Shown piece by piece: positions 3,737 to 49,624 of a stretch of DNA of 64,000 bases (position 1 is its first letter; the number at the start of each line of letters is the position of its first letter). The notes beneath the pieces are model-generated. The model had not been told where the DNA came from and made no database searches. It saw only the letters and a program-made list of their open reading frames with translations. Origin of the DNA: Collinsella provencensis (GTDB lineage Bacteria > Actinomycetota > Coriobacteriia > Coriobacteriales > Coriobacteriaceae). The stretch is from positions 379,694 to 443,693 of the forward strand of contig NZ_LT904908.1 of NCBI RefSeq assembly GCF_900199705.1. Direction: 5' to 3'. The translations under genes were made by a program, and so were the position numbers.

Positions 3737-3877
3737 CGAATTCGGTTCAATTTCTACGACATGCGAAGTATACGACGATTTCGAGTCAAAACGCCTGAAG
3801 AAACCGCAGGTACAGTGCTCGCATTTTTCTCAATATCAAGCTCTGCTCGACATGTCCGGAAAATTGAACCGAATTCG
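3737..3877 (-). repeat. Inverted-repeat element A2
   Basis: Perfect 17-bp arms CGAATTCGGTTCAATTT (3737-3753) and its complement (3861-3877) enclose 107 nt. Read on the minus strand, the interior contains the 15-mer TACCTGCGGTTTCTT (3798-3812), identical to the core of element A3 at 28122-28136. Similar GAGCA, GAGAAAAA-like, ACTC and AGAAATT blocks lie in the same order around it. It is assigned to the minus strand only because that orientation matches A3. No protein is encoded. Confidence 0.75.
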
Positions 3878-3953: not shown

Positions 3954-4056
3954 CAGGCCATATATCATCCCATGCTCAAGCAGTCCTGCTCACGACGAAG
4001 GCGCCACCGGCGCCTTCTGTTCGTGCGGAACTGCGCGTGGGACTATATATGGCCTG
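3954..4056. repeat. Structured element B1 (103 nt)
   Basis: Outer stem CAGGCCATATAT (3954-3965) pairs with ATATATGGCCTG (4045-4056). A centred hairpin GAAGGCGCC / ACC / GGCGCCTTC lies at 3997-4017. The boxes CAGTCCTGCTC and TCGTGCGGAACT flank the hairpin and are shared with elements B2 (7934) and B3 (19956), while stem sequences differ in compensatory fashion. It lies between convergent genes and has no T-tract. Confidence 0.8.
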
Positions 4057-7933: not shown

Positions 7934-8038
7934 AGTCCAACATATATCATCGCCTGCTCGGGCAGTCCTGCTCGCACGAAGAGCCCACTGGGCTCTTCGG
8001 CTCGTGCGGAACTCGCATTCGACGATATATGTTGGACT
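7934..8038. repeat. Structured element B2 (105 nt) between era and recO
   Basis: Outer stem AGTCCAACATATATC (7934-7948) pairs perfectly with GATATATGTTGGACT (8024-8038). The central hairpin GAAGAGCCC / ACT / GGGCTCTTC (7978-7998) sits at the midpoint. The conserved boxes CAGTCCTGCTC and TCGTGCGGAACTC are the same as in B1. It fills the gap between two same-strand genes and ends about 30 nt before the recO start. Confidence 0.82.
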
Positions 8039-28039: not shown

Positions 28040-28203
28040 AATGCACAATGGGGTAGGGTTTTCGCACAGTTTTGGCTAACCGCCGAGTAGATCGCCGTTT
28101 TAAGAAAAAGAGCATCACTTCTACCTGCGGTTTCTTTTCGCTGATTTACTCTCTACTTGGAGAAATTCCAAAGTTGTGCGAAAACCCTATCCCGTTGTGC
28201 ATT
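28040..28203 (+). repeat. Inverted-repeat element A3 with 36-bp stem
   Basis: Arms 28040-28075 and 28168-28203 pair over 36 bp. The four non-identical positions (10, 14, 30 and 31 of the arm) are all transitions that give G-U pairs in plus-strand RNA and A-C mismatches in the other strand. The 92-nt interior holds TACCTGCGGTTTCTT (28122-28136), identical to the minus-strand core of A2. It is downstream of the small plus-strand membrane gene and ends at the T-tract of the pepP terminator. No protein is encoded in 27998-28202. Confidence 0.82.
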
Positions 28204-49225: not shown

Positions 49226-49600
49226 GAAAAAAGCGCCCGTCCCTTACAAGCTGGGACGAAGCGCCTTGAGAATTGCGTTTGAGCAGTTGGACGCTGTGAT
49301 TTTCACAGCCTGCTTGCGCGCGAAGCGTTTCGCTATACCACCCAGCTTAGGCTCGTGCGCCTGGCTGCGCACTCCCCCGTTACTCGGCTGGTCCGTAACG
49401 ACGACCATCCCGGCGGCATCTACTGAACCATCTTGATTGCGTGCACGAAACAAGGCGGACGCCTGCTCCTTCACATGCGGCAAGACAATCGTTCGGACCG
49501 CGGCTCCGGGGTGATTTTCAACTCGGCCACACGCGCTCGGTTCTCAGCTTCCCCGAGCTCTCTCATCCGCATGGATACGACCTACTCGTCCCCATCAACG
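49226..49600 (-). promoter_or_regulatory. T-box riboswitch (Ile) controlling ileS
   Basis: Read on the minus strand, the leader has GACGAGTAGG (49581-49590), AGAGAGCTCGGGGA and GCTGAGAACCGAG blocks typical of stem I, and GAAAATCACC with the Ile codon ATC as specifier (49513-49515). It also has a T-box core AAGCTGGGTGG (49338-49348) followed by TATAGCG instead of the usual ACCGCG. The T-box AAGCTGGG can pair over 8 bp with CCCAGCTT (49248-49255) to form the antiterminator. The competing terminator stem GCGCTTCGTCCC / GGGACGGGCGC is followed by TTTTTT (49226-49265). High confidence in class, moderate in exact limits. Confidence 0.88.
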
Positions 49601-49624
49601 CCTGTGGGCAGCATAATAACACGT

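Follow-up and report, generated by a model that had tools for sequence, protein, structure and literature searches.

Two intergenic palindromes of Collinsella provencensis, A2 and A3, are probably non-autonomous members of a family of mobile DNA. A complete unit of this family would consist of a palindrome, a nuclease gene and a second palindrome, resembling REPIN/RAYT but with an unrelated nuclease. Palindromes and nuclease genes are associated, the arms on the two sides of a gene match, and units of this kind have borders like those of cassettes. From these sequence patterns we infer mobility, and the binding, cutting and copying that would underlie it. Both elements lie in the window, that is, the whole stretch of 64,000 nucleotides analyzed, and belong to a family of dispersed intergenic palindromes of about 125–165 bp each, with some 35–40 copies in the 1.74-Mb genome of this species.

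Two Elements with a Common Core

A2, of arm type V, occupies positions 3737–3877 on the minus strand, with its core inside outer arms at 3737–3753 and 3861–3877. A3, of arm type X, spans 28040–28203 on the plus strand and similarly encloses its core between outer arms at about 28040–28076 and 28168–28203. The first-pass annotation had noticed a 15-mer common to minus-strand A2 and plus-strand A3, and both sites were located: this conserved centre motif, TACCTGCGGTTTCTT, lies at 3798–3812 (minus strand) in A2 and at 28122–28136 (plus strand) in A3, and none of 100 shuffled windows contained two matches to it, even when up to two mismatches were allowed. The whole genome contains exactly three copies of the 15-mer, every one of them within a long inverted repeat, and it is thus not a common k-mer found away from such repeats. 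Matches to a core model extend over 3756–3857 in A2 (E 5.1e-11) and 28077–28168 in A3 (E 6.1e-14). Sequence reading combined with the family alignment places the inner inverted repeat of A3 on the plus strand, with the left half GAGTAGA at 28085–28091 and the right half TCTACTT at 28152–28158.

The arms of the two elements have nothing in common. They had been described as unrelated but perfectly paired, and pairing is indeed perfect in A2 (CGAATTCGGTTCAATTT, 17 of 17 positions), while in A3 it is near-perfect across about 36 nt (28040–28076 with 28168–28203). The smaller motifs listed around the 15-mer are real in part, the portions conserved throughout the family being GAGTAGAC ... ACCTGCGGTTT ... 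GTCTACTC. A2 is among the more diverged family copies, with extra nucleotides flanking the core motif on both sides, and its site is empty in all 29 relatives examined. The window also contains a hairpin at 680–767 whose arms, CGAATTCCGTTGGATTTT, are similar to the type V arms of A2; the covariance model R1 (see below) gives no core match there.

A Dispersed Palindrome Family

Searching genomes with covariance models of the core recovered a dispersed palindrome family across related genomes, and the pattern proposed from A2 and A3, in which variable but matching arms enclose a conserved core, is true for more than 100 copies. R1, built on nine cores, detects 34–38 copies in the C. provencensis genome and also has matches in most other species of this genus; at E<=0.01 the C. 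provencensis genome has 35 core matches. A second model, R2, built from 76 diverse cores, finds copies in 47 of 52 sampled Coriobacteriaceae genomes and, more sparsely, in another Coriobacteriales family (22 genomes), with few elsewhere. Copy number differs widely among related genomes.

Each copy has a centre of ~65 bp, spacers that are usually ~12 nt long, and then the matching outer arms. Core length is notably constant, with 69 of 123 distinct copies measuring 65 nt, and the core has the consensus GAGTAGAC-N-AAAA-N-GCA-N-CTACCTGCGGTTT-N-AAA-N-GTCTACTC. More than 25 unrelated arm types were found, left and right matching in each. Types X and Y (C. provencensis) and R (three other genomes) are essentially confined to inverted pairs with a set spacing, and neither solo arms nor long-spaced arm pairs of these types were seen in the four genomes tested. 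At L079, from the other Coriobacteriales family, the outer arm reads ACTTGTCTGTACTT and the inner repeat AAGTACAGACAAGA; the two are reverse complements, a hint that the same protein may bind outer and inner sites. The window also contains hairpins of another dispersed family built on the same plan (3954–4056 and 7934–8038), with a shared centre GCAGTCCTGCTC..CACGAAG..CTTC..TCGTGCGGAACTC and different matched arms; a copy at the same aroQ-pnp site in a relative (L081) has wholly different arms.

The elements adjoin ordinary housekeeping genes and favour convergent gene ends, and the neighbouring genes share no functional theme. In C. provencensis, 30 of 42 elements fall in the dnaA half of the chromosome (median test, p about 0.004); a fixed position relative to the origin was rejected, this bias being inconsistent in other genomes. 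Most type Y copies in the same genome start exactly where the T-run of an intrinsic terminator ends, and do so in a single orientation (e.g., L031, L040, L042, and L046), an insertion preference that holds for type Y alone and was not retained as a general rule. Tandem pairs of different palindromes, ~10–20 nt apart and with related arm tips TTCCGGAAGT, are found at the unrelated loci L052, L136, L158, L166, and L188.

A Nuclease-Like Partner Protein

Clustering of the proteins encoded near elements revealed one unnamed family of ~350 aa that came up at seven independent loci whose arm types differ. By profile search, 58 of 59 Coriobacteriaceae genomes encode two to eight members. In C. provencensis, two W elements enclose a W gene, two V elements a V gene, and the elements at 1595520 and 1597174 an X' gene. 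We then scored the presence of a 105–170-bp hairpin within about 500 bp of 45 distinct genes (<70% identity) and found one at 38 (84%), against 3 of 29 aroQ genes, 1 of 27 Y1-transposase genes, and 1 of 29 random positions (3–10%). In all 11 cases with palindromes on both sides of the gene, the arms are the same. In 12 of 28 cases the gene-side arms are seen again in solitary elements of that genome, with often only one to four such elements sampled per genome; matched numbers drawn from other genomes gave 2 of 28. There is a weak but significant correlation between the similarity of arms and that of proteins (rho 0.10; 14 of 2000 permutations). Regarding the window, A2 aligns with the V gene-side arms with a score of 19 (maximum of 500 shuffles, 10) and A3 with the X' gene-side arms with a score of 15 (maximum of 500 shuffles, 12), A3 resembling the palindrome arms of the X' gene at 18 of 21 aligned bases. 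Most type Y copies of C. provencensis lack a gene that matches them exactly; the genome does have a related gene of type W.

The C-terminal domain of the partner protein weakly matches Vsr/EDxHD-homing-endonuclease-like nucleases, to which it may belong. Among the 45 members, 26 match REase_MTES_1575 (best 3.6e-6) and 19 match DUF559, single members scoring under the Pfam cut-offs. Among PDB entries, the profile of the 45 proteins matches only 3r3p, "Mobile intron protein" (55 residues, E 0.0013), which we take to be I-Bth0305I. The latter, the type enzyme of the EDxHD homing endonucleases, reportedly dimerises on a target almost 60 bp long (PMC3943268). Invariant residues of the partner family include E207, D252, E267 (ECQG), H274, and R286, and the position of the catalytic lysine is a Q in most members. 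The family has no entry in NCBIfam or PADLOC and no relatives in the phage and viral collections. A 1785-bp circular plasmid record carrying a family gene was considered as an excised circle; it is without a palindrome and thus not an intermediate. L165 was dropped from the collection, since its supposed arms are also present in the plasmid record, beside unrelated sequence, and do not belong to this palindrome family.

Different Units at Shared Loci

The comparison of species provides clues on how the units change. At L316 (G319) and L318 (G227), from two species, both flanks are shared at 93–96% identity, yet the units between them differ, with proteins 49% identical, different arms, and opposite orientation relative to the flanks; at L316 the similarity ends about 30–40 bp outside the two palindromes. 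A similar switch of unit, without inversion, is observed between L311 and L319. Of 89 protein pairs with more than 75% identity, all 89 share a locus, and so the genes look stable in recent times. The overall picture suggests units that are old at their sites, yet have been exchanged for very different ones.

Both arms differ between the orthologous sites L116 and L169 and between L057 and L132 (types R' and R), and in comparisons between species groups the arms are the least conserved part. L166 and L168, at one locus, differ by the precise presence or absence of one of two neighbouring elements; TCCnGAAGT at the junction is common to both and is also arm sequence. No target-site duplication is visible in the element flanks, and no transposition intermediate was seen.

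Proposed Mechanism and Alternative Explanations

We put forward that each nuclease would recognize, as DNA, its own arms plus the common centre, and would cut or nick at the palindrome, whereupon palindromes could be copied or inserted in trans, a mode of action modelled on the role proposed for RAYT transposases at REPINs. The arms would diversify because nuclease and arms change together, and the centre would stay constant because all paralogs need it. The predicted partner of A2 is the V-type gene at C3:1259958–1261085, and that of A3 the gene at C3:1595758–1596813.

The first-pass annotation had read the pattern as either a structured noncoding RNA or an element whose ends are chosen by pairing. 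A structured RNA, with the arms as stem and the core as active loop, we regard as very improbable. In its favour, the stems are long and the inner GAGTA/TACTC stem of 5 bp is intact in 89% of cells, with modest covariation (T-A to C-G in nine sequences). However, 623 left-right arm mismatches comprise 138 of the G-U type and 136 of the A-C type, and thus favour neither strand as a folded RNA, RNAalifold predicts no pairs inside the core, the Rfam scan yields no family match for the element, and many copies directly follow terminators. The lack of a G-U bias, together with the absence of a consensus fold in the centre, argues for a DNA element and not an ncRNA, and it is as dispersed DNA that the element reading is supported. 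(At 49312–49607 of the window, minus strand, there is a T-box-like match of 50.5 bits, under the gathering score of 93 bits.) The proposed choice of ends by pairing gave way, since arm types recur per genome and are identical on both sides of a nuclease gene, which points to recognition by the cognate protein rather than to pairing as such. That the core itself is the mobile part, inserting into existing palindromes, would fit a constant core and varying arms, but X, Y, and R arms are found only at the standard spacing and never alone; this absence of core-free arms largely refutes the idea, to which we give next to no credence.

Two further explanations concern the partner protein. It is improbable that the palindromes are non-autonomous transposons of an ordinary, unseen transposase, with the nuclease gene as passenger or target neighbour. 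Their element-like dispersal would suit such a scenario, as would the type Y copies placed directly after terminator T-runs in one orientation; nevertheless, no longer element with such ends is present in the four genomes tested, C. provencensis has no Y1 transposase, the Y1 loci of relatives are without a core match, and the 84% association of genes with palindromes, with arms matching on both sides, stands against it. The main rival, unlikely in our view but deserving more weight, is that the nuclease-like proteins serve the host, as regulators, as chromosome-site binders, or as a nuclease system that reads palindromes as marks of self, the palindromes being scattered binding sites under selection. 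At orthologous solitary sites the arms are the most conserved part (0.92–1.0 identity vs. 0.65–0.95 in the flanks), suggesting a retained function and not decaying transposon remnants, and room is thereby left for a host role. The housekeeping neighbours and the preference for convergent gene ends, the highly variable proteins at fixed loci, and the Q at the catalytic lysine position of most members point the same way. On the other hand, units with differing arms replace each other, inverted and with breaks just outside the palindromes, copy number varies widely among related genomes, and it is the arm type, not the position, that is fixed within a genome. We favour a mobile palindrome-nuclease system.

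Possibly, though we propose it only tentatively, these units constitute a hitherto unrecognized class of bacterial transposable element driven by a Vsr/EDxHD-type endonuclease. The nuclease and the palindromic ends would change specificity in concert at fixed loci, around a universal centre that is retained, and such elements would be widespread in Coriobacteriaceae, with sparser relatives in another Coriobacteriales family. If so, an unrelated enzyme would join the short list of those tied to small dispersed bacterial palindromes, and more than 25 natural enzyme-arm pairs would be at hand for the study of specificity change in a nuclease of such fold. The family would also account for a large share of the intergenic hairpins in common human gut bacteria, which could otherwise pass as terminators or ncRNAs. 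In the open-access papers searched, we did not find this pairing of palindrome and nuclease gene described.

Comparison with Known Systems

Like bacterial MITEs, the palindromes are short and dispersed with matched ends; they differ in their diverse ends, constant centre, and the absence of a visible target-site duplication. The idea that the arms are ends of an ordinary insertion sequence was rejected: there is no parent transposon with the same ends and no long-spaced arm pair in four genomes, and palindrome-gene-palindrome units are found instead. DUF559 and REase_MTES_1575 proteins, for which we know of no palindrome association, have the same C-terminal region, with a weak sequence match (best 3.6e-6) that falls below curated cut-offs. 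The Vsr-like EDxHD homing endonucleases (I-Bth0305I, PDB 3r3p) provide the sole solved-structure match of the nuclease domain and are themselves selfish mobile DNA, but the present genes lie outside introns and inteins, are palindrome-flanked, have many solitary copies of the palindrome, and encode a different N-terminal region. Rpn (YhgA-like) proteins, with no cognate palindromes to our knowledge, belong to a different Pfam family. They are PD-(D/E)XK "transposases" (PMC5350276) and similarly represent a nuclease fold class tied to DNA mobility.

The closest parallel is REPIN/RAYT, in which REP doublets are associated with a Y1 HUH transposase (PMC3116915). Y1/RAYT (PF01797) was rejected as the partner here, with none in C. 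provencensis and no core match at Y1 loci; the Y1 (RAYT-like) transposase genes at L213 and L216 come with palindromes of another kind, TTTGGGACGGGGC, which bear no relation to the A2/A3 family. In both systems, short palindromes form many intergenic copies with no larger autonomous copy, and one enzyme gene per element type lies near matching elements, the action in trans being presumed in our case. The recurrence of an element type beside its own enzyme gene, a REPIN/RAYT trait, is found here with another enzyme, Vsr/DUF559-like and unrelated to Y1, and with elements of 125–165 bp that have a constant centre and variable arms, the gene often lying between two of them. We thus call the system a REPIN/RAYT variant, alike in organization and different in the enzyme, the defining feature, which was tested.
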